A stretch of 64,000 bases of DNA from an uncultured Lachnospiraceae bacterium (GTDB lineage Bacteria > Bacillota > Clostridia > Lachnospirales > Lachnospiraceae): the NCBI GenBank assembly GCA_947588675.1, contig CANPYY010000004.1, positions 48,636 through 112,635 of the forward strand, read 5' to 3'. Positions 21,615-30,911 of the stretch are shown here, one piece after another. Position numbers and translations under genes: made by a program. The notes below the pieces were generated by a model that made no database searches, was not told the DNA's origin, and was given only the letters and a program-made list of their open reading frames with translations. Each line of letters begins with the position of its first letter. Position 1 is the first letter of the stretch.

Positions 21615-21689
21615 ATACATTTCCCCTTTACACAATATATTTATATATTATTATCAATGCCCCCTATAACTTTGTCAAGAATATAAACC

Positions 21690-21697
21690 CATATAAT
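21690..21697 (+). promoter_or_regulatory. Possible sigma-E type -10 box before cotJA
   Basis: CATATAAT fits the sigma-E -10 consensus CATAyAaT, 66 bp before cotJA. No convincing -35 lies at the right distance, so only the -10 is supported. cotJ operons of other spore formers are sigma-E dependent. Confidence 0.3.
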
Positions 21698-21762
21698 TCT
21701 GTAACTTTTTACAATAAAAGACATAAATTGATATAAAACATTATTGCAAAAAGGAGTTTTTT

Positions 21763-21978
21763 ATGGAATGTAACAAGCTTAACGACAAGTTCAGTTACGA
21801 CCGTCTTGAAGGTATGCCTCTCGGAAGCGCATATGTACCATGGCAGCAATTCTGCCAGGTAATGGACGCCGGCAAAGGATTAAGTTATGGCACAATTTTT
21901 GCTGAACTGGTTTTACCTTTCTATGGTGCAGCCGCTGCCTGCAGTGATAAAAGGAGGGGTTTGTATGAACAATGCTAA
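21763..21978 (+). CDS. cotJA: Spore coat-associated protein CotJA
   Basis: Small protein (71 residues) of the CotJA family, with the typical segments PLGSAYVPWQQF and GKGLSYGTIFAEL. It is the first gene of cotJABC, a mother-cell operon whose products join the inner spore coat. AAAAAGGAG precedes the start. It overlaps cotJB by 14 bp. Confidence 0.9.
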   Translation: MECNKLNDKFSYDRLEGMPLGSAYVPWQQFCQVMDAGKGLSYGTIFAELVLPFYGAAAACSDKRRGLYEQC

Positions 21979-22216
21979 GAAGAATCTTATGCAGTTTATT
22001 AACGAAGTAAGTTTTGCACTTGACGACGTTTCCCTGTATCTTGATACCCATCCCGACGATAAAGAAGCGCTTGATTATTACAAAAAATATATGGTTCAGC
22101 GCAAACAATCTATAAAAGAATATGAAAAATGTTATGGTCCTATTACACGCTACGGCGTAGAATCAGATGATAAATGGACATGGATAGACGAGCCATGGCC
22201 ATGGGAAGGAGTGTGA
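21965..22216 (+). CDS. cotJB: Spore coat protein CotJB
   Basis: 83 residues from the ATG at 21965, which follows AAAAGGAGGGG. Family features are LMQFINEVSFALDDVSLYLDTHP, then EALDYYKKY, and the C-terminal YGPITRYGV with WTWIDEPWPWE. It overlaps cotJA and is followed 4 bp later by cotJC, the usual order. Confidence 0.92.
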   Translation: MNNAKKNLMQFINEVSFALDDVSLYLDTHPDDKEALDYYKKYMVQRKQSIKEYEKCYGPITRYGVESDDKWTWIDEPWPWEGV

Positions 22217-22220
22217 TTGT

Positions 22221-22526
22221 ATGTGGACTTATGAACGAAGACTTCAATACCCTGTAAAAATAACAAGATGCAATCCTAAAATAGCACAGGTAATTATAAG
22301 CCAGTACGGAGGACCCGACGGTGAGATGAGCGCTTCCATGCGTTACCTGTCACAGCGTTATTCCATGACTGACAAATCTGTAGCAGGATTACTTACGGAT
22401 ATAGGTGCAGAAGCACCGCAAATGTTCCTAAGTATCTTTTTTACATGCAGTATATGTCCATTTTACCGAACAGTTTTTCAGATACACATCAATACTGTCA
22501 TTATCATTTACCACAATTCTGTCTAA
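22221..22526 (+). CDS. cotJC: CotJC, N-terminal part of an interrupted gene (reads through into the element)
   Basis: CotJC is a spore-coat protein of the manganese catalase (ferritin-like) family. The first 62 codons are normal (MWTYERRLQYPVKI, YGGPDGEMSASMRYLSQRY, GLLTDIG). After 22405 the reading frame leaves CotJC and continues for about 40 codons of element DNA, antisense to the end of the recombinase gene. The missing part resumes in the same frame at 30488. Joining 22221-22405 to 30488-30911 gives 203 codons (202 residues), near the 189 residues of Bacillus CotJC. In the chromosome as sequenced the protein would be non-functional. Confidence 0.93.
   Translation: MWTYERRLQYPVKITRCNPKIAQVIISQYGGPDGEMSASMRYLSQRYSMTDKSVAGLLTDIGAEAPQMFLSIFFTCSICPFYRTVFQIHINTVIIIYHNSV
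22383..22428 (+). mobile_element. attL of the cotJC intervening element
   Basis: Left junction. The core TAGGT-g-CAGAAG occupies 22402-22413 and matches TAGGT-a-CAGAAG at the right end. Bases outside are cotJC; bases inside (22406-22427) are the element's P-prime arm. The likely crossover is the GG at 22404-22405, the centre of the reconstructed attP dyad. Confidence 0.8.
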
Positions 22527-23828
22527 TATATATCTGTAAAATTCATCTTCATATTCCATTCCGCCAACAATCTCATCAACAGCATCAGAAATACTTTGCA
22601 GATTTTTTATATCTAAGGTAACGGCAGATTTTATAACCGTAATAAGATTATTTCTGATTTTTACCATTTCATTTTCAAGGCTTTTTACAACAAGGCACAT
22701 AATATGTACTATATCTTCATTACGTATGTTCCTGCCCGAACAGCCTTCCGTATTCCCATACCGGTCAGTATGGGGTCTGCCATACTGAACAGCATTATTA
22801 CAACGCCATGCTTTATACGTGCTTCCATCTTTACGTTTCTTATACCGCGCCACGTAACTTGAACCGCAGCAGCCGCATTTGATTTTTCCCGAAAATATAT
22901 AACGGTTACTGTATTTTGCCCGACCTTTTTGAGATGCGGAACGTTCATCCAGAATACGGTTTGCTTCTTCAAACATTTCACGAGAAATAATAGGTTCATG
23001 ATGTTCCTTTATAACAATAAATTCTTCCTGCCCCTTATTGTATTTCTTTTCATGCGACAAAAAATCCGGCGTGTAAGTCTTTTTCTGTACCAAATCTCCA
23101 CAGTATTTTTCATTCCTTATAATTCTCAAAATAACAGTATTATGCCATTTATTTACTCGTACAGGCCGTATGCCTTCCTCCTGAAGCTCCCGCGCAATCA
23201 CGTGAGTACCCTTTCTTTCATTAACAAATTTCTGAAAAATGCGCCGCACAACAGCAGCGCCTTCCTCATTAATATACATTTTACCGCCACGCACATCATA
23301 GCCAAGCATACTTCTCCCAAATACCACCCCCTGTTCCATCTGACGCTTCTGTCCCCATTTTACACGTTCAGAAGTCTTACGGCTTTCTTCCTGGGCAATT
23401 GAAGACATTATCGCCAGACGAAGCTCCGCATCGCTATCCATGGTATTAATATTGTCATTCATGAATACAACGGCCACCCCGTGTTTTTTCAGAATACGCG
23501 TATAATATATACTGTCCAGGGTATTTCTCGCAAAACGCGATATTTCCTTAGTAATAATTAAATCAAACTCGCCATTCATGGCACATTCTATCATGTTATT
23601 AAACTCTTTACGTTTCTTTGTATTGGTCCCCGATATTCCTTCATCTGCGAATATCCTGTATAATTTCCAGCCGTCATTACCATCTATATATTGTCTGAAA
23701 AATCTGCATTGACTTTCAAAAGAGTTTGCCTGGTCCCTGCTGTCCGTTGAAACACGACAGTATGCCGCTACTCTTTTTTTTACTTCAGAATTTCCTTCTT
23801 TCTGATTTAAAAGTTCATATTTATTCAT
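22428..23828 (-). CDS. Serine site-specific recombinase (large serine recombinase)
   Basis: 466 residues. The resolvase-type catalytic domain has the nucleophile Ser27 in AAYCRVSTD and downstream IITKEISRFARN and SSIAQEESRKTSERVKWG. A recombinase domain follows, then a zinc ribbon (CGCCGSSY near residue 325 and the later CNN...C cysteines), then a C-terminal helical stretch with coiled-coil character. The stop codon is 15 bp from the attL core, the usual position for an integrase. It is the best candidate to excise and integrate the element at cotJC. The upstream small gene overlaps its start by 8 bp, and the shared promoter resembles sigma-E sites. Confidence 0.95.
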   Translation of the reverse strand: MNKYELLNQKEGNSEVKKRVAAYCRVSTDSRDQANSFESQCRFFRQYIDGNDGWKLYRIFADEGISGTNTKKRKEFNNMIECAMNGEFDLIITKEISRFARNTLDSIYYTRILKKHGVAVVFMNDNINTMDSDAELRLAIMSSIAQEESRKTSERVKWGQKRQMEQGVVFGRSMLGYDVRGGKMYINEEGAAVVRRIFQKFVNERKGTHVIARELQEEGIRPVRVNKWHNTVILRIIRNEKYCGDLVQKKTYTPDFLSHEKKYNKGQEEFIVIKEHHEPIISREMFEEANRILDERSASQKGRAKYSNRYIFSGKIKCGCCGSSYVARYKKRKDGSTYKAWRCNNAVQYGRPHTDRYGNTEGCSGRNIRNEDIVHIMCLVVKSLENEMVKIRNNLITVIKSAVTLDIKNLQSISDAVDEIVGGMEYEDEFYRYILDRIVVNDNDSIDVYLKNCSVKWTYTACKKDT

Positions 23829-24027
23829 TCCAATTATTCTCCGGATTATTTTTATTATGTAAAGACAGTTTGTCCATGCAGCGTTCTCTTTGAAATGTTG
23901 TCAATAACTTTCTTTTTTCCAATGAAATAAGTATTGCCGTCCGGATACCCGTTACCAGCTCCTTACATTCCAATACATTTAATTCTTCGGCAGGACCGCC
24001 GGTGTATACATATTTGTGATAATTCAT
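23821..24027 (-). CDS. Small protein upstream of the recombinase, candidate directionality factor
   Basis: 68 residues from the ATG at 24027 (ribosome site AGAGGA, 9-base spacing). An earlier in-frame ATG at 24048 lies at or before the predicted transcription start and is not used here. The sequence is charged and helical (ECKELVTGIRTAILISLEKR, then LLTTFQRERCMDKLS), with no family I recognise. It overlaps the recombinase gene by 8 bp, so the two are co-expressed. Serine integrases need a small partner to excise, and position makes this the natural candidate, but function is inferred. Confidence 0.6.
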   Translation of the reverse strand: MNYHKYVYTGGPAEELNVLECKELVTGIRTAILISLEKRKLLTTFQRERCMDKLSLHNKNNPENNWNE

Positions 24028-24054
24028 TTCTGTTTTTCCTCTTTTCATACTATC

Positions 24055-24084
24055 AATATATGATACAGAGATTGTCCTATATGC
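24055..24084 (-). promoter_or_regulatory. Sigma-E-like sporulation promoter of the recombinase operon
   Basis: Minus strand: -35 GCATATA at 24078-24084 (6 of 7 to kmATATT), 15-base spacer, -10 CATATATT at 24055-24062 (7 of 8 to CATACAAT). The predicted start falls near 24048, giving a short leader with AGAGGA before the small gene. Mother-cell expression of the recombinase would follow. Confidence 0.55.
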
Positions 24085-24121
24085 CGTATCGGAATCAGGT
24101 TCCGGTATCCTGTAATTTTTG

Positions 24122-24165
24122 CAAAAAAACAGAAGTCCTAAATTGTTTTAATAATTTAGGACTTC
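24122..24165 (-). terminator. Rho-independent terminator of the surface-protein gene
   Basis: GAAGTCCTAAATT (24132-24144) pairs perfectly with AATTTAGGACTTC (24153-24165); on the minus strand a run of seven T follows (24123-24129). It ends the 24188-28441 gene and insulates the recombinase promoter. Confidence 0.9.
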
Positions 24166-24187
24166 CGCTATTGATTACTTTATTTTA

Positions 24188-27100
24188 TTACTTTATTACT
24201 ACTCCGGAACTTACTCCCGCTTTCTTTAACAGTTTCTTATACACAGCGGTTTTCTTTTTAGGTACTTTTATTTTAGCTTTATCATTTATACCATAGAAAG
24301 CTTTGCTTCCTATACCCTTTTTAGTAATTTTAGCTGATTTTATCTTAATGTTCTTTACTGTACTGCATCCATAAAAAGCTTTTTTACCAATCTTTTTAAC
24401 ACTTGCCGGTATAGTTACCTTTGTAAGTTTATTGCATTTATAGAATGCTTTATTTCCTATTGAAGTAACATTACTTCCGATGTTTACCGTCTGAAGTTTT
24501 TTATCTCCTTTAAATGCTCCGTCGGCAATAGAAGTAACTTTATACGAAACTCCGTCTATCAATACTTCATCCGGTATAACTACCTTTTTCTTAGAAGTAT
24601 CAACGCCGCTAAATTCTACTGTCTCCGACTGCAAAGCCGCTCCTGTTACCATATACTTAACACCTTCAACAGGAACCATATCTCCCTCCTGATGGGCAGA
24701 TGTCTGGCCTGCAGGCTGAACTTCCGAAGTACCCGGAACTGTATTCTGACTATTACCTGTATTATTATCTGACGGTGTCTCTTTACCGGATGGGGTTTCC
24801 GTACCCTGTGGTTCTCCGGTTGCTTTTGGTTCTTCCGTTGCCCCGGGTTCCTCTGTTGCTTTCGGTTCTTCCGTTACCTCAGGCGCATCTGTTGCTTTTG
24901 GTTCTTCTGTTGCCTTAGGCGCATCTGTTGCTTTTGGTTCTTCTGTTGCCTTAGGCGCATCTGTTGCTTTTGGTTCTTCTGTCGCCTTAGGCGCATCTGT
25001 TGCTTTCGGTTCTTCTGTTGCCTTAGGTTCCTCTGTTGCCTGTACTTCTGCATCCCTTGTTTCCTGCTTTCCACATAACGTACATGTGTGGGATTCAGTT
25101 TTTCCATCATCTGATAATTTCCATGCACCAAATGTATGTTCATCTGTAACTGCCGTTATCTCGCTTTCAGAATATTCACATACGTTACATACACGTTGCT
25201 TAATTCCCGTATCCCTGCAGTTTGCATGTTTTATATCTTCCCATTCTCCAAAACTGTGGCCTTCTGCCGCATCTTCTACAGTACTGCGTGACAGCTCAGC
25301 CTCGCATATTGTACAGTATACCACTTCTTCATGAGAACCTGCTTTTACACAGCTTGGCAATATTTCATCTTCCTTTACCGGATTACCGGCAACATGCTCA
25401 TGGTTCTTTTCAGTGACGTTTACAGTACATTTAGCGCTTGCAACAGCGTTTGTGGTGCCTGTAAATGTCGTTACCTTTAAAGTATATTCTCCGGCATCTG
25501 ACTGTTTTACATTATCTATAACAAGATTCTTATCAACCTGGTTAGTAAGCTGTTCCTCGCCATGATACCACTGATAAGTATGCTCTCCTGCTGAAATTTC
25601 AGGAGATACCACAAGTTCTGAACCTTCTGTAACGGTTACTTTATTTTTCAAAGTAATCTTAGCCGGCTCCGCTACAGGTAACACAACCGTTTCATTAGCT
25701 TCTTTCTCTTTTTCAGCAACTTTCTCTGAAATAAATCTGGCATCAACAATACTTCCATCCTGTATATCTGCATAATTCAGGTCAATCTGCATATCTCTGC
25801 TGATGCTTTCAACATCTTTGTATTCACCTGCTACATTAACCGAATCAATTACATAGCCTTCTGAAGCTTTTACCGTAACAGTTTTGCTTTCACCTTCATG
25901 CAGCGTAAGCAGACCTATCGAAGAATCATCCGCAGTAATTGTACCTCCCTCATCATGTGACAGGATAACTGTCTTTTCAGTATTCTGCGGAATCTCTACA
26001 TGTGAATCCACAGCCGCAATTGTAAACGGACTGAAAGACTGAACTGTAATAATAAGTCCGTAAGGCGTTACCGTAATAGGAATTTCCTCAACTCCGGTAA
26101 TCTGTCCGGTATTATCATCTGTTATATAATGATAAGCTTTAAACGTTACTCCGTTAAGGCTTGAATCATAATTAAAGCCTTTCGGGAATCCTACAGATAC
26201 CCTTACTCCCTGACCTGTCCTTACAATCTGTTTTTTACACAATGTAAGTTTGATATTGTACGTATTGCTTGAAAGAATATCCTCTTTTGCAACATCAATA
26301 TTATCATCCTCAAGCAGTGTCGTTTCCATTTGCTTGCTCTGTAAAGGTGTCGTTTCAGTTGTTACAAGAGTAAGCCTGTGGGAAATTTTACTGCTGATAT
26401 CTACATCTTCCAGTTCTCCGCTTTCCGTATTCTTACCAATCCATTCGCCTGTAGCCACATCAGACGTATCAATAAGCTGTGGCTGACCAAATACGTTCCA
26501 GTCATATCCCTGTGATTTATAGACATATGCTGCACACCTGAAGCCAGCAAGATACGTTATATTAACCAAATCACGTCCTGTTTCTTTACTTGCAATACCT
26601 TCAAAATGAAGACTATAGAAAACGCCGTCGTCTGCAAACTGGGCACTTGGTGTAAAGTCAAATTCTATTGTTCTGTCCCCGTCAAATGTAAGATGTTTAA
26701 TTGTACAATATTCGCCGGCCGTTACATTATCCCTGTTATTTGAAGTAGAATTTTCAAGGACAATCTTAAAATCTTCTTTTGAACCCGTATATGCAAGTTC
26801 CTGATCATATACGGCTTTTATATGATGGCTTTCTCCTATATATAACGTTCCGCTCATAGCCGGTGTAACCTTTTGAGGATAAGGCGGCGCAACATATCCG
26901 TCATAATAAGTATTCTGATATGTTTGCGTCATAGCTGCAAACAGCGCAGGGTTGGTACCATAATAGCTGCAGTAAAGACTTCCTTTTCGTACGGCTTCTA
27001 CCGAAATATCCGGAGCCACATTCGTAACAGCAAACTGCGCCAACTGAAGATGCGGCATATAGAATTTCAGATAACTTTCTCCCATGCTGCTGTCATATCC

Positions 27101-28441
27101 CTTATCGCCTTTCTGCATCTCCAAATCCAAACTATACATCTCAGGGCATACATATCCCCAGTCACTGTATTCCAGACTATTTTCATCATTGGATATTGCA
27201 AACCTTGCAACAATATATTCACCATTTTTTGCATTATCAGTGTAATTCAGCCCTTTATAACTTACAAGCATTGTTCCTGACTTAACCACACCATCTTTTG
27301 CCTCAATATAGGAATCTTCACAAAGCTTTACCTTAAAATCACCGTCATTGTAAAACTCTACTCCTCTCAATGCTTCCTGACTAAGTGTTGGATATGAAAA
27401 TTCATAATTTGCTGCAGACATAACTCCCTGCGGAATGTGGTGCGCTGCTAAATCATTTTCTCCTACAAGCAGGTACTGTTCTGTTTCGGCGCCGCTTTTT
27501 TTCTCGTTACTATATTCTCCCATTCTGTCCTTAACCCTTGGGTCGTCATGCGTAACGTCAACGCCATACCATATTCCGTCAATCTCAACATAATTCCATA
27601 TATGTTCACCGACTTCAGTCTGTGATGCACGGTAAACTCCATATACGCAGACACAAGGAATCTCAAGTCTGTCTAAAACAGCTTTAAACGCCCTTGTATA
27701 GGCTTCACATACACCTTCTCCATATATAAGGCTGTCATATGCTGTTCTGGAATTGCAGTTTTCATTCGTAACCTCATCTTCATATTTATATATCATATTA
27801 TCTACGATATACGTATGAACTGCTTCAGTCATAGTCTTGGCAGGTGATTCATTTTCCCTTCCCGAAGCGGGTTTTGCTTCTTTTGCAATATCAACAACCT
27901 TATTTACTGCTTCTTCGTACTTTACAATAGCTTCTTCAATATTACCCGGTTCAAATCCCGGCATAAAGTAGTTATCTCTCTTGCCTGCGCCAAGATATCC
28001 GTGGAAACCTGCGCTGTCCCTCTTAACCCTTATGGATATTGCAGAAAAATCAACATAAAACACATCAGGGAAATCATTCTCAAACGCATCTCTAGCCGCT
28101 CCCATATCGTTTAACAACTGCTGGTTTCCTTCCAACGCATAACTGGTAACCTGTTCTTCTGTCACATAACCTTTTTCAAGCAAATCGCAATCCTCGCCGC
28201 GCTTAAATGAACCGTCTTTATACATATTGTACATTGCGTCATACAGTTTTTTTGCTTCCGGAGTCAATTGATAGTAAAAATACCTGTACTCATTTTCCCC
28301 GTTCTCCTCCGCGGCAACTGATATGCCTGAATCTGTTGTTTCCTTTGCTGACACATTTACTACAGCCGAAATATTATATGGAATACACATAACGACTGCT
28401 AATGATGTAGCTAAAATTCTTTTTAAAGCTTTCATTTTCAT
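24188..28441 (-). CDS. Giant secreted transglutaminase-like surface protein with Ig-like, Cys-rich, Pro-repeat and LRR modules
   Basis: 1,417 residues. Signal peptide (about 1-32). A transglutaminase-like domain has Cys245 (GEGVCEAYT), His280 (GEHIWNYV) and Asp295 (GVDVTHDD) in the canonical order, so a thiol cross-linking or protease activity is plausible. Later modules are beta-rich segments and an immunoglobulin-like domain (YQWYHGEEQL...SDAGEYTLKV), then CxxC-containing repeats (CTICEAELSR, CNVCEYSESE, CTLCGKQETR). A Thr/Pro/Glu/Lys tandem-repeat linker and BspA-type leucine-rich repeats follow, ending in KIKVPKKKTAVYKKLLKKAG. It is cargo of the cotJC element and is preceded by a c-di-GMP-I riboswitch. 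It is probably a surface adhesin or cross-linker. No LPXTG motif is seen. Confidence 0.85.
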   Translation of the reverse strand: MKMKALKRILATSLAVVMCIPYNISAVVNVSAKETTDSGISVAAEENGENEYRYFYYQLTPEAKKLYDAMYNMYKDGSFKRGEDCDLLEKGYVTEEQVTSYALEGNQQLLNDMGAARDAFENDFPDVFYVDFSAISIRVKRDSAGFHGYLGAGKRDNYFMPGFEPGNIEEAIVKYEEAVNKVVDIAKEAKPASGRENESPAKTMTEAVHTYIVDNMIYKYEDEVTNENCNSRTAYDSLIYGEGVCEAYTRAFKAVLDRLEIPCVCVYGVYRASQTEVGEHIWNYVEIDGIWYGVDVTHDDPRVKDRMGEYSNEKKSGAETEQYLLVGENDLAAHHIPQGVMSAANYEFSYPTLSQEALRGVEFYNDGDFKVKLCEDSYIEAKDGVVKSGTMLVSYKGLNYTDNAKNGEYIVARFAISNDENSLEYSDWGYVCPEMYSLDLEMQKGDKGYDSSMGESYLKFYMPHLQLAQFAVTNVAPDISVEAVRKGSLYCSYYGTNPALFAAMTQTYQNTYYDGYVAPPYPQKVTPAMSGTLYIGESHHIKAVYDQELAYTGSKEDFKIVLENSTSNNRDNVTAGEYCTIKHLTFDGDRTIEFDFTPSAQFADDGVFYSLHFEGIASKETGRDLVNITYLAGFRCAAYVYKSQGYDWNVFGQPQLIDTSDVATGEWIGKNTESGELEDVDISSKISHRLTLVTTETTPLQSKQMETTLLEDDNIDVAKEDILSSNTYNIKLTLCKKQIVRTGQGVRVSVGFPKGFNYDSSLNGVTFKAYHYITDDNTGQITGVEEIPITVTPYGLIITVQSFSPFTIAAVDSHVEIPQNTEKTVILSHDEGGTITADDSSIGLLTLHEGESKTVTVKASEGYVIDSVNVAGEYKDVESISRDMQIDLNYADIQDGSIVDARFISEKVAEKEKEANETVVLPVAEPAKITLKNKVTVTEGSELVVSPEISAGEHTYQWYHGEEQLTNQVDKNLVIDNVKQSDAGEYTLKVTTFTGTTNAVASAKCTVNVTEKNHEHVAGNPVKEDEILPSCVKAGSHEEVVYCTICEAELSRSTVEDAAEGHSFGEWEDIKHANCRDTGIKQRVCNVCEYSESEITAVTDEHTFGAWKLSDDGKTESHTCTLCGKQETRDAEVQATEEPKATEEPKATDAPKATEEPKATDAPKATEEPKATDAPKATEEPKATDAPEVTEEPKATEEPGATEEPKATGEPQGTETPSGKETPSDNNTGNSQNTVPGTSEVQPAGQTSAHQEGDMVPVEGVKYMVTGAALQSETVEFSGVDTSKKKVVIPDEVLIDGVSYKVTSIADGAFKGDKKLQTVNIGSNVTSIGNKAFYKCNKLTKVTIPASVKKIGKKAFYGCSTVKNIKIKSAKITKKGIGSKAFYGINDKAKIKVPKKKTAVYKKLLKKAGVSSGVVIK
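24872..25027 (-). repeat. Tandem 36-bp coding repeat (12-residue Pro/Thr/Glu/Lys units)
   Basis: About four near-identical 36-bp units encode EEPKATDAPKAT, with diverged units on both sides. Near identity at the DNA level suggests recent expansion. The repeat forms a stalk-like linker between the Cys-rich region and the LRR module of the surface protein. It is not a CRISPR because there are no unique spacers. Confidence 0.9.
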
Positions 28442-28557
28442 GTCCTCCTATTTTTTATTCAGGAAAATAACTTAATTCCGAATCTTAGCCCATTTATTCC
28501 CCATATGGTATACAAAATAAAAATCGCCCACACCAAAAGCAGACGACTTTAAGCGTC

Positions 28558-28640
28558 TAATTCGGCAACCGGCTGTCATAGTCCTAAGACCTTAGACCCT
28601 TGGCTTTGCGTCCCTGCTTTTCAACAAGTTTGCTATTATC
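28558..28640 (-). ncRNA. Cyclic di-GMP-I (GEMM) riboswitch
   Basis: Minus strand carries the class I hallmarks in order: AGCAAACTTG, GGGACGCAAAGCC, GGGTCTAAGG, CTATGACAGCCGGTTGCCG. The aptamer lies about 115 nt before the start of the giant surface protein. Downstream sequence includes a small hairpin (AGACG/CGTCT) and a T run near 28515, which may be the expression platform, but ON or OFF behaviour cannot be decided from sequence. Confidence 0.9.
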
Positions 28641-28671
28641 GTTAAACTTATTTTGTTAATTTCCTGATATC

Positions 28672-28700
28672 ATTTTATGAAGTACATATATCAATGTCAA
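28672..28700 (-). promoter_or_regulatory. Sigma-A promoter of the riboswitch transcript
   Basis: Minus strand: TTGACA at 28695-28700, 17-base spacer, TAAAAT at 28672-28677. Transcription would start about 25 nt before the aptamer, leaving a leader of about 225 nt. Confidence 0.75.
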
Positions 28701-28805
28701 GCGCTTTTTCAAAAATTTCCCATTGTTTATTTTTATTTTAACTATATATATATAATCATGCTTTGGTGGTGAACTTTCCTTCTTTAAAGTTTATATAGTT
28801 TTCAT

Positions 28806-29702
28806 TTAAGTCCACATTGCTTTCATGCAAGTCCATATTTTATGCCATTCATCCTTATTCACTATCGCATCAAATACAGGTTCAAGAAAAGTCTGAATTT
28901 CCTTAATCACGGCAGAAAATTCAAGCGTGTTGTCCTTAATGTTCTTCAAAAAATATCTCCACCGCTTCTGCATATCTACGTCCTCAGCAAGTGCTACAAT
29001 TCGTTTAAAGCTATCTATACCGTAGGGTGTGCCACGATGCTGCAAGGTTTCAAAGATTGCTTTTTGCAGCCTTTCGCCATCGAAATCAAAAAACCTTGCC
29101 AGATAATAAATATCGTAAAAGTCTTTCATGCGCCCTGTCAGTTCAAAGCGTTGCAGTATAGCATCAAACTTTTCGGCTATGGTGCTTTCAAGAGAATAAG
29201 TTTTGATCACAGGCGCTTCAAATTCGGGAAGCTGCGTATGGATTGTGCGTTGTTCCGCTCTGGGTACAATCACATCGCCCACACCGATGTCCACATTAAA
29301 AGGCACGCGTACATTTTTAATCTGCCCAATAATCTGTGCACTGATACCGTGGTATTTCCTCTGCGGAGAAATTTCTTCAAACCCTTTGGCCGTCATTAAA
29401 ATATAGTCGTTACCGGTTGGAGTGGCAATAATATTTCCAATCAATTCCTTCACATCTTCTACGGAATTTGAAAAGCCACGTAAAAGGAAGTCCACATCAA
29501 TCGTTGCCCGACTTTCAAAGTTTGTCAGCGTATAAATAAACAAACCGCCTTTCAGTACCAGAAACTCATCATATCCGGATTTCGATAATTTCCTTAAAAA
29601 TTCCTCCTGCACAAAAAGCTGCAAGCATTGCTGATAGCTAATGCCGGATGCTTTAGCTTTGTTCCGAAGCTTTGCAAGAACCGATGCCGCCTGATCTGCC
29701 AT
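28806..29702 (-). CDS. AbiEii-type nucleotidyltransferase toxin
   Basis: 298 residues from the ATG at 29702, which overlaps the antitoxin stop as TAATG. Motifs of the AbiEii/AbiGii nucleotidyltransferase family: LVLKGGLFIYTLTNF followed by TIDVDFLLRG (Asp-x-Asp), then PFNVDIGVGD and an ESTIAEKFDAIL and DFYDIYYLARF region. In AbiE systems this protein is the toxin, acts on cellular nucleic acid targets such as tRNA, and can give abortive infection. It is paired with an AbiEi-like antitoxin and probably stabilises the cotJC element or defends the host. Confidence 0.88.
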   Translation of the reverse strand: MADQAASVLAKLRNKAKASGISYQQCLQLFVQEEFLRKLSKSGYDEFLVLKGGLFIYTLTNFESRATIDVDFLLRGFSNSVEDVKELIGNIIATPTGNDYILMTAKGFEEISPQRKYHGISAQIIGQIKNVRVPFNVDIGVGDVIVPRAEQRTIHTQLPEFEAPVIKTYSLESTIAEKFDAILQRFELTGRMKDFYDIYYLARFFDFDGERLQKAIFETLQHRGTPYGIDSFKRIVALAEDVDMQKRWRYFLKNIKDNTLEFSAVIKEIQTFLEPVFDAIVNKDEWHKIWTCMKAMWT

Positions 29703-30310
29703 TACAACCACACTCCAATCAATTCCCTTACTCTTTTCTGCACACGAAGTTCCTTTGCATATCGCATGAGATTTGGAATGTTTTTCTTTGTATCATTCAC
29801 ATATCCTTGAATTGCCTTATTAAATACTTCTTTGTCCATCTTGTTCATATTCCGCAACACATCGCAAATGGTACGGTCACGGTCATAAATTCGGACTTTG
29901 GTAAAATCTATTTCGCCGGTTGTCTCTCCGAGCGGAAGTAAAGAAGGTTCCATTCGATAGACTCTTATAAAAGGATAATCCATTTTTGTTCGCTCTTTGG
30001 AAACATTCTTATTCAGTGCGAGATTCCACTGGGCAGGGTTACGGTCACTGTATCTGTAATAAAACAATGCGGTTTCCATACACAAAACAGCATCGGGGAA
30101 AAGGCGGTTGATAATCAGAACTTCGCTGCCTATCGTATCTTCCACCCAATGGTAGTACCCTCTTTTGATCTTCTCGATCAAGCCTTCCTTCAACATGAGC
30201 TGAATATCCGCATAATACAGCTTTTCCGCCTGTAGCTCGGCGGTCGTCATGATATATTGATAATCCGAGAAAATATTTCTAAGCGCACTGATCGCATTCA
30301 AATCCAACAT
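29702..30310 (-). CDS. AbiEi-type antitoxin/transcriptional regulator
   Basis: 202 residues. An N-terminal winged-helix region (YIMTTAELQAEKLYYADIQL, LIEKIKRGYYHW) precedes the AbiEi family C-terminal domain (MDYPFIRVYRMEPS, IDFTKVRIYDRDRTICDVLR). It is translated first, from GAGGTGAGCAG-ATG, and overlaps the toxin. AbiEi proteins repress their own promoter; repeated sequences at 30331-30451 are likely sites. Confidence 0.87.
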   Translation of the reverse strand: MLDLNAISALRNIFSDYQYIMTTAELQAEKLYYADIQLMLKEGLIEKIKRGYYHWVEDTIGSEVLIINRLFPDAVLCMETALFYYRYSDRNPAQWNLALNKNVSKERTKMDYPFIRVYRMEPSLLPLGETTGEIDFTKVRIYDRDRTICDVLRNMNKMDKEVFNKAIQGYVNDTKKNIPNLMRYAKELRVQKRVRELIGVWL

Positions 30311-30330
30311 CTGCTCACCTCTATACTAAT

Positions 30331-30451
30331 CCAACCGAAAGCAAATCCATCGGTTGGGTAGTTTCATATAAGATATCACATTTACAAGGAAAAATCAACC
30401 GTAGTTAATCACCCAACTTAAAATCCACCAATAGGGTGGTTTCATATAAGA
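30331..30451. promoter_or_regulatory. abiE promoter with repeated operator elements
   Basis: Minus-strand promoter TTGATT (30393-30398), 17 bases, TATCTT (30370-30375). An 18-base direct repeat GGGTrGTTTCATATAAGA occurs at 30356-30373, over the -10, and at 30434-30451 (17 of 18 identical). Inverted repeat CCAACCG (30331-30337) / CGGTTGG (30351-30357) lies just downstream. The pattern fits autoregulation by the AbiEi-like protein. Confidence 0.6.
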
Positions 30452-30463
30452 AAATGGCAATCA

Positions 30464-30509
30464 GAACATTTCCGATACTTCAGTAGGTACAGAAGAACTG
30501 GCTCACCTT
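30464..30509 (+). mobile_element. attR of the cotJC intervening element
   Basis: Right junction with core TAGGT-a-CAGAAG at 30484-30495. Element arm 30464-30483 is the inverted partner of 22408-22427 (16 of 20 bases complementary). Bases after 30487 encode CotJC (GTEELAHLE). Confidence 0.8.
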
Positions 30510-30911
30510 GAAATTGTTGCTTCAATTATTCATCAGCTTACAAAAGACCTCACTCCTGACCAGATAGCAGCTTCAGGGTTTGATAAATATTATGTGGACC
30601 ACACTCTTGGCATATGGCCGCAGGCTGCGGGCGGTATTCCTTTTAACGCATGTGAATTTCAGTGTAAAGGCGACCCTCTTACCGACCTATATGAAGATAT
30701 GGCGGCAGAACAGAAAGCGCGAAGTACCTATGACAATATTTTAAGACTTGTAAAGGATCCTGAAGTTGCCGACCCTATACGCTTCCTGCGTGAACGTGAG
30801 ATTGTGCATTTCCAGCGTTTCGGTGAAGCCCTCAGAAGGGTTCAGGATACTCTTAATCCTAAAAACTTTTATGCCTACAATCCTTCTATTGATAAAAACA
30901 GTTGCAAATAG
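30488..30911 (+). CDS. cotJC: CotJC, C-terminal part of an interrupted gene
   Basis: Codons from 30489 read TEELAHLEIVASIIHQLTKD, then YYVDHTLGIWPQAAGG and MAAEQKARSTYDNILR, up to PKNFYAYNPS and a stop at 30911. These are the C-terminal two thirds of CotJC, including di-metal ligand regions of the manganese catalase fold. There is no start codon or ribosome site at the junction. A GTG at 30594 could open a shorter frame, but it has no ribosome site and begins mid-domain. The frame matches the upstream half across the 8,082-bp element. Confidence 0.93.

Follow-up and report, generated by a model that had tools for sequence, protein, structure and literature searches.

The spore-coat gene cotJC is split by an 8,082-bp serine-recombinase element with features suggesting excision during sporulation

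The split gene and the element within it

The window analysed here is a stretch of 64,000 nucleotides from an uncultured Lachnospiraceae bacterium (assembly GCA_947588675.1, contig CANPYY010000004.1, positions 48,636 to 112,635 of the forward strand). It contains the spore-coat gene cotJC in two parts, separated by an element that carries a large serine recombinase (LSR). The gene starts at 22221, codon 62 (GGT) occupies 22404-22406 and the break falls after two bases of this codon; the length of the interruption is 30488 - 22406 = 8,082 bp. A preliminary description of this DNA had proposed an interruption of this length with the same frame resumed at 30488, and the Pfam matches of both parts and the joined frame agree with it. 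Its statement that codons 1-62 end at 22405 was right in the end coordinate and wrong in the codon count, the 5′ part being composed of codons 1-61 and two bases of codon 62. The parts and their joints are listed below.

22221-22405, plus strand: cotJC 5′ part, codons 1-61 and two bases of codon 62, 185 nt (Pfam Mn_catalase, E = 1.1e-18, profile positions 1-62; joined frame)
30488-30911, plus strand: cotJC 3′ part, last base of codon 62 to the stop, 424 nt (Pfam Mn_catalase, E = 4.6e-26, profile positions 64-197; joined frame)
22386-22429, no strand: attL, consisting of a cotJC-derived left arm, the core TAGGT-G-CAGAAG and the element-derived arm CAGAAGCACCGCAAATGTTCC (22408-22428) (sequence; similar arms in relatives)
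30463-30500, no strand: attR, consisting of the element-derived arm AGAACATTTCCGATACTTCAG (30463-30483), the core and a cotJC-derived right arm (sequence; similar arms in relatives)

Joining of the flanks in silico gave 202 residues and a stop in one frame, containing LLTDIGTEELAHLE, which is the protein length originally claimed. Two marks of a skin-type element are thus found here: a mother-cell sporulation gene is interrupted (cotJC, at codon 62), and exact removal restores a single open frame. Expression of cotJ in the mother cell is known from other species.

The core common to both joints was read as TAGGT-[G/A]-CAGAAG, in keeping with the TAGGT-n-CAGAAG first reported. The gene-side arms of both joints are ordinary cotJC sequence. 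The element-side arms, AGAACATTTCCGATACTTCAG at attR and the reverse complement of CAGAAGCACCGCAAATGTTCC at attL, are identical at 16 of 21 positions, as would be the two halves of an attP site. Similar attP-like inner arms occur at the codon-62 break in genomes G001, G003 and G009 (both joints) and G089 (one joint seen). An intact cotJC at the same site, which the preliminary description had proposed to look for in related genomes, was found in G006 (locus L028), of the same genus, where the codon-62 site is uninterrupted. The shared core goes beyond chance because this uninterrupted site exists and because the recombinase family recurs at codon 62 (see below).

The split cotJC is the only manganese-catalase (PF05067) gene in the metagenome-assembled genome (MAG; 95% complete, 92 contigs). 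A spare cotJC paralogue was considered; none was present in this MAG.

The element carries five genes, all on the minus strand. These genes, the putative promoter among them and the two neighbouring cotJ genes are as follows.

22428-23828, minus strand: LSR, 466 amino acids, with Resolvase, Recombinase and zinc-ribbon domains (Pfam 9.5e-32, 8.1e-25 and 6.5e-11)
23821-24027, minus strand: small protein, 68 amino acids from the second ATG, candidate recombination directionality factor (RDF) (found before the LSR in 73 of 79 regions; alignment)
24055-24084, minus strand: sigma-E-like promoter GCATATA-N15-CATATATT, with a SpoIIID-like box GGACAA opening the spacer (sequence motif)
24188-28441, minus strand: 1,417-residue protein with transglutaminase-like, Ig-like and BspA-type leucine-rich-repeat domains, cargo (Pfam; related proteins in the G001 and G003 elements)
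28806-29711, minus strand: AbiEii-type nucleotidyltransferase toxin, cargo (Pfam 5.5e-45; PADLOC 1.1e-89)
29702-30310, minus strand: AbiEi-type antitoxin, cargo (PADLOC 2.2e-69)
21763-21978, plus strand: cotJA (Pfam CotJA, 1.5e-14)
21965-22216, plus strand: cotJB, start ATG (Pfam CotJB, 5.1e-33)

The three Pfam domains place the recombinase in the LSR class, and its gene ends about 25 nt or less from the core, so that the element has its own site-specific recombinase beside an att site. It is the only PF07508 match in the genome. Its reading frame is open and the motif YCRVST, the serine of which we take to be the catalytic residue, is invariant in an A1 recombinase alignment of four relatives. 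The best NCBIfam match is XisF (the fdxN-element excision recombinase), far below the cut-off. The small-protein gene overlaps the start of the LSR gene by 8 nt. The 1,417-residue cargo protein contains a run of EEPKATDAP-type repeats (window 24800-25060). No phage structural or lysis domain, as expected of a prophage, was matched by Pfam in the five element genes.

Recurrence of the break in related genomes

The search for PF05067 covered 116 genomes from this genus, family and order (the window's own included), 85 of which match. In 28 of the 116 genomes, again counting our own, cotJC is in at least two pieces. By profile position the break lies at about 60-70 in 16 of these, at about 28-33 in seven and at about 147-152 in three, and the remaining two have several breaks (cotJC in three pieces in G068 and in four in G087). 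Junctions were read in 27 of the 28; G100 was counted from the search table alone, and in G020 the 3′ piece is cut by the contig end. G025 and G106 were left out of the count because both of their pieces reach contig ends and an intact gene cut by the assembly is possible. Four more genomes (G007, G057, G066 and G089) have one cotJC half only.

Four crossover places were distinguished: A1 at codon 62, A2 at codons 65-67 (most clearly so in G002, G008 and G056), B near codon 30 and C near codon 135. The LSRs beside the breaks form four families, each at its own break position. When distinct loci with a long recombinase match within 1.5 kb of the break were counted, family A1 was found at site A in 70 loci (and in three more with an alignment overrunning the break), A2 at site A in 11, B at site B in 15 (and in L138) and C at site C in three (L070, L086 and L147; also L158 and, in part, L071, with L088 lying 1.9 kb off). 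For A2, B and C the association with cotJC arises by selection, because these loci entered the set for holding cotJC.

This does not apply to A1, since the scan of named genomes used the recombinase alignment alone. It gave at least 551 relatives; the A1 figures refer to the best 80 of the 551 (59-77% identity), which are mostly kin, so that the counts are not independent trials. A cotJC piece is present on the locus in 76 of the 80, and in 70 the recombinase open reading frame lies within 400 nt of the codon-62 break. The proposed role of cotJC as attachment gene for a serine-recombinase element is well supported by these figures and by the matching inner arms. A second break is present in nine of the 80 A1 loci, in eight of which a B- or C-type recombinase lies at it. 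Recombinase relatives were also found in phage records and IMG/VR (17 loci, ten with a cotJC piece by tblastn).

For the regional comparisons, loci that were copies of the window or of L037 were dropped (L092, L002 and L153, the last agreeing with G003 at each of 7,900 compared bases), as were L001 (in the counts of halves), L199, L201 and L203 where relevant, and L193, L210, L215 and L217 (in the 900-nt motif comparison). Exclusion of five loci without the recombinase N-terminus reduced the A1 regions from 84 to 79.

At site A, all 79 of the 5′ halves have a start codon and no stop, and 34 of the 35 3′ halves are stop-free (the exception is L159). The median dN/dS of the halves is 0.18 (226 pairs) for the 5′ and 0.14 (20 pairs) for the 3′ half, against 0.23 (26 pairs) and 0.25 (11 pairs) for the same parts of intact cotJC. 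Between the window and G001 the changes are mostly synonymous (dN 0.007 and 0.003, dS 0.53 and 0.81 in the two halves). Decayed halves in relatives, named beforehand as an observation that would tell against excision, were largely not seen, the exceptions being a short 5′ half in L232 and the stop in the 3′ half of L159.

Several loci show further arrangements. In L158, G087 (L088-L091) and G068 (L085-L087) cotJC is in three or four pieces with site-typical recombinase families on the same loci, and in L158 a single contig carries all three sites. In L036 and L037 (G003) cotJC apparently holds two elements one behind the other; L037 opens with a middle att-like site, and L036 contains the C-terminus of a second recombinase. 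L048 (G069) has two similar 3′ halves of cotJC at a distance of about 3.5 kb, each beginning after a site-A break. In 48 of the 70 adjacent loci among L093-L172 the stop-to-stop frame of the recombinase runs across the cotJC break (directly seen in L094), so the C-terminal tail of the recombinase may differ between the integrated and excised forms. The shortest element measured (L094, 8675-11680, 3.0 kb) has an LSR, the small protein and, by eye, an apparent RelB/RelE-type toxin-antitoxin pair.

The small protein and its upstream sequence

An A1-type small protein precedes the recombinase in 73 of the 79 A1 regions. The strict form of the sigma-E-like motif with its SpoIIID-like box was found upstream in 44 of the 79 and a relaxed form in 58; the relaxed form was found in none of the 79 on the opposite strand, in 18 of 1,580 shuffles and before one of 21 control recombinases without cotJC nearby (900-nt limit, copies removed). 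Thirteen of the 79 regions do not reach 900 nt. The distance from the strict motif to the conserved start of the small protein is 24-31 nt in most cases, L159 being an exception. In the window the pattern WTANNGKACA-N10-CATR matches once, at the promoter before the small gene, with 0.14 matches expected. G003 has in this position a sigma-E-like GCATATT-N15-CATATACT, the spacer of which is without the SpoIIID-like box. Scored for sigma-E without the box, 28 of 79 A1 regions reach at least 12, compared with 4% of shuffles; the A2, B and C families and the controls were indistinguishable from shuffles by this score. The consensus letters used for sigma-E and for B. subtilis SpoIIID are what we assume them to be. 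They are not printed in the available portions of PMC517825 and PMC7438776.

The host genome contains sigE and spoIIID, the latter with CATACAAT upstream, and an unsplit sigK-like gene. An interrupted sigK was considered and ruled out by the open 220-codon frame; the sigma-K match is just under the model cut-off (291.2 versus 298.65 bits).

In family C the relaxed motif is present upstream in three of six regions (L081 of this set is only 29% identical). By eye, a CATA-type -10 element precedes the gene of a 44-48-residue protein in all five members with upstream sequence. This protein is not matched by the A1 small-protein profile (best E 0.24), and the sigma-E wiring has apparently arisen more than once. 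In 200 genomes of the family the profile found four small proteins, our own included; the other three are beside an A1-type recombinase (apparently broken in G150) and have the relaxed motif upstream. Two of them have a cotJC 5′ half and are apparently L095 and L133, already in the A1 set.

Where the gap between the small gene and the recombinase is at least 150 nt (n = 56), a strict hairpin follows the small gene in 25 cases and a sigma-A-like promoter is present in 44, against 24 expected, a moderate excess. Three homologues of the small protein (81-100% identical) were found in the protein database. Its AlphaFold model is a two-helix hairpin (mean pLDDT 83). From its position the small protein is likely to be the directionality factor. 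Judged by the sequence of the sigma-E-like motif and SpoIIID-like box, the small protein, and in this element the recombinase too, may be under mother-cell control.

Proposed excision, rival explanations and known systems

The arrangement strongly suggests that the window element is a sporulation intervening element, since the sigma-E-like motif and small protein precede most A1 recombinases, the cotJC halves are nearly all open and their changes are mostly synonymous. Excision in the mother cell is the best explanation of the anatomy, of the repeated use of one codon and of the motif before a small protein beside the recombinase; we infer it, as well as its timing and the role of the small protein. 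We therefore consider it quite probable that the element sits at a fixed site in cotJC and is removed seamlessly in the sporulating mother cell, intact CotJC being made only there.

In the cycle envisaged, the recombinase would integrate attP into attB at the DIGTEELAHLE codons, as the joints and relatives suggest. The element would be kept in growing cells and in the forespore and so passed on through the spore. Sigma-E and SpoIIID are predicted to switch on the promoter at 24084-24055, giving the small protein, here along with the recombinase. Together these two would then act on attL and attR, so that codon 62 is restored and a circle of 8,082 bp is set free. As the mother cell dies, the element would lose nothing by its excision, while the toxin-antitoxin cargo may punish its loss in growing cells.

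Several observations weigh against this proposal. The element genes of the window and G001 differ by a dS of 0.24-0.28, lower than the 0.99 of the adjoining cotJB; the element has thus moved between species recently, and the low dN of the halves is partly older than the insertion. In L232 (IMG/VR) a cotJC 5′ half beside an A1-type recombinase has, by eye, about 30 codons missing in frame, which shows that decay of cotJC halves does occur, and the search for halves would tend to miss decayed copies. The relaxed motif is absent upstream in all 11 A2 and 15 B regions (900-nt limit, copies removed) and in 21 of the 79 A1 regions, including those of G003, G039 and G093 (L037, L045 and L081). Genome-wide the strict motif is not enriched in the window's own genome (eight matches, nine for the reversed control), and the weight of the argument is therefore on where the motif lies and on its conservation among related, non-independent sequences. 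Four A1 loci (L122, L135, L148 and L150) lack a cotJC piece and in six others the piece lies 2.2-7 kb away. The small protein gave no sequence match in the PDB and no fold match at E 0.001. The attP patterns expected of the excised form gave no match in IMG/VR or in ten genomes of the genus. No terminal repeat was found in the 17 recombinase loci from phage records and IMG/VR, a result that is informative only for the whole contigs L220, L221, L222 and L232.

Some of these points would be accommodated by an ordinary site-specific mobile element that uses a conserved gene, knocks out cotJC and is excised rarely and without connection to sporulation. Movement between species, addiction-type cargo, the missing circle and the lack of the motif in A2 and B at the same gene all agree with such an element, as does a C. 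difficile prophage beside a cotJC-family gene that the available text of PMC11222575 does not describe as excised in sporulation. Against it stand the open halves in nearly all copies found, the recurrence of the motif and small protein across A1, the similar motif in three of six family C regions before a small protein that the A1 profile does not match, and the lack of a spare cotJC in the genome; we regard this explanation as unlikely. That cotJC is a pseudogene and the element a stranded remnant is suggested by L232 and by the stop in L159, but the recombinase is open with YCRVST invariant in four relatives, the attL and attR arms match and the halves are open with low dN/dS, which makes a decayed insertion very improbable. 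The 92 contigs of the MAG could point to an artefact of metagenome assembly. This is scarcely credible, as the cotJC pieces in 76 of 80 loci include records not titled MAG (such as Dorea sp. 5-2, Parablautia muri D42-62, Roseburia sp. 1XD42-69 and Hespellia stercorisuis DSM 15480) and the split also occurs in the single-contig genome G096.

Beyond the window, it is somewhat more likely than not that cotJC serves the Lachnospirales as a hub of developmental recombination. Four LSR families would have come separately to use four sites in it. In A1 and C, at least, the recombinase would be paired with a small protein that differs between the two families and has a sigma-E-like promoter before it. 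Two or three excisions in one mother cell would be needed in some genomes.

The published systems are compared here from the parts of the papers that were available. The closest is skin of C. difficile (skinCd), where the RDF CD1234 has 72 residues, a sigma-E promoter and a SpoIIID motif and the recombinase (CD1231) is constitutive (PMC5025042). As in the window, an LSR lies in a split mother-cell gene (sigK), and a small protein of about 70 residues stands behind a sigma-E promoter with a SpoIIID motif (PMC5025042), the corresponding A1 motif being sigma-E-like in sequence. In many A1 members the recombinase may likewise have its own promoter, of the sigma-A-like type counted above. The target, however, is a sigma-factor gene there and a coat catalase gene here, the window small gene overlaps the recombinase gene, and the likeness to CD1234 noted here is one of size and of the promoter before the gene. 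In B. subtilis SP-beta (SprA/SprB) is likewise a serine-recombinase element in a spore-surface gene (spsM); sporulating cells excise it with the help of an RDF that the element itself encodes and the mother cell expresses (PMC4191935, PMC5025042). It differs in being a full inducible phage, whereas the window element is 8 kb long with no phage structural domain among its five genes. The gin element in gerE of Bacillus cereus ATCC 10987 is described as an intervening element that is not a prophage (PMC5595907), and lies in another gene and organism. The intervening elements vfbin (spoVFB), vrin (spoVR) and yin (yabG) lie in sporulation genes other than cotJC (PMC10747680, PMC4191935, PMC5025042). 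The phi027 prophage of C. difficile R20291 adjoins the cotJC-family gene CDR20291_1465, a 678-bp open reading frame downstream of attR (PMC11222575), which is not described in the text available as split or rejoined during sporulation. The genes that these texts name as interrupted by such elements are sigK, spsM, spoVFB, spoVR, gerE and yabG. No printed report of a split cotJC was found in the available text of the literature searched (including PMC5025042, PMC10747680, PMC4191935, PMC10083194 and PMC11222575), which leaves most subscription papers, preprints and supplements outside its coverage.

Programmed excision in the mother cell has so far been described for few genes, and here one coat gene is in pieces in about a quarter (28/116) of the genomes searched from one family and order. 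If excision is confirmed, common gut bacteria would routinely rearrange their genomes in dying mother cells as they form spores, and a terminal cell type would be a general safe harbour for mobile elements. The families would also supply recombinases and candidate directionality factors from nature, with attachment sites already known.

Upstream of cotJA (window 21620-21762; also in L028, L033, L034 and L038) an AC-N16-CATAAANTGATA-like sequence was noted by eye. It resembles a sigma-K promoter, and cotJ transcription from it would follow the proposed sigma-E-driven excision.

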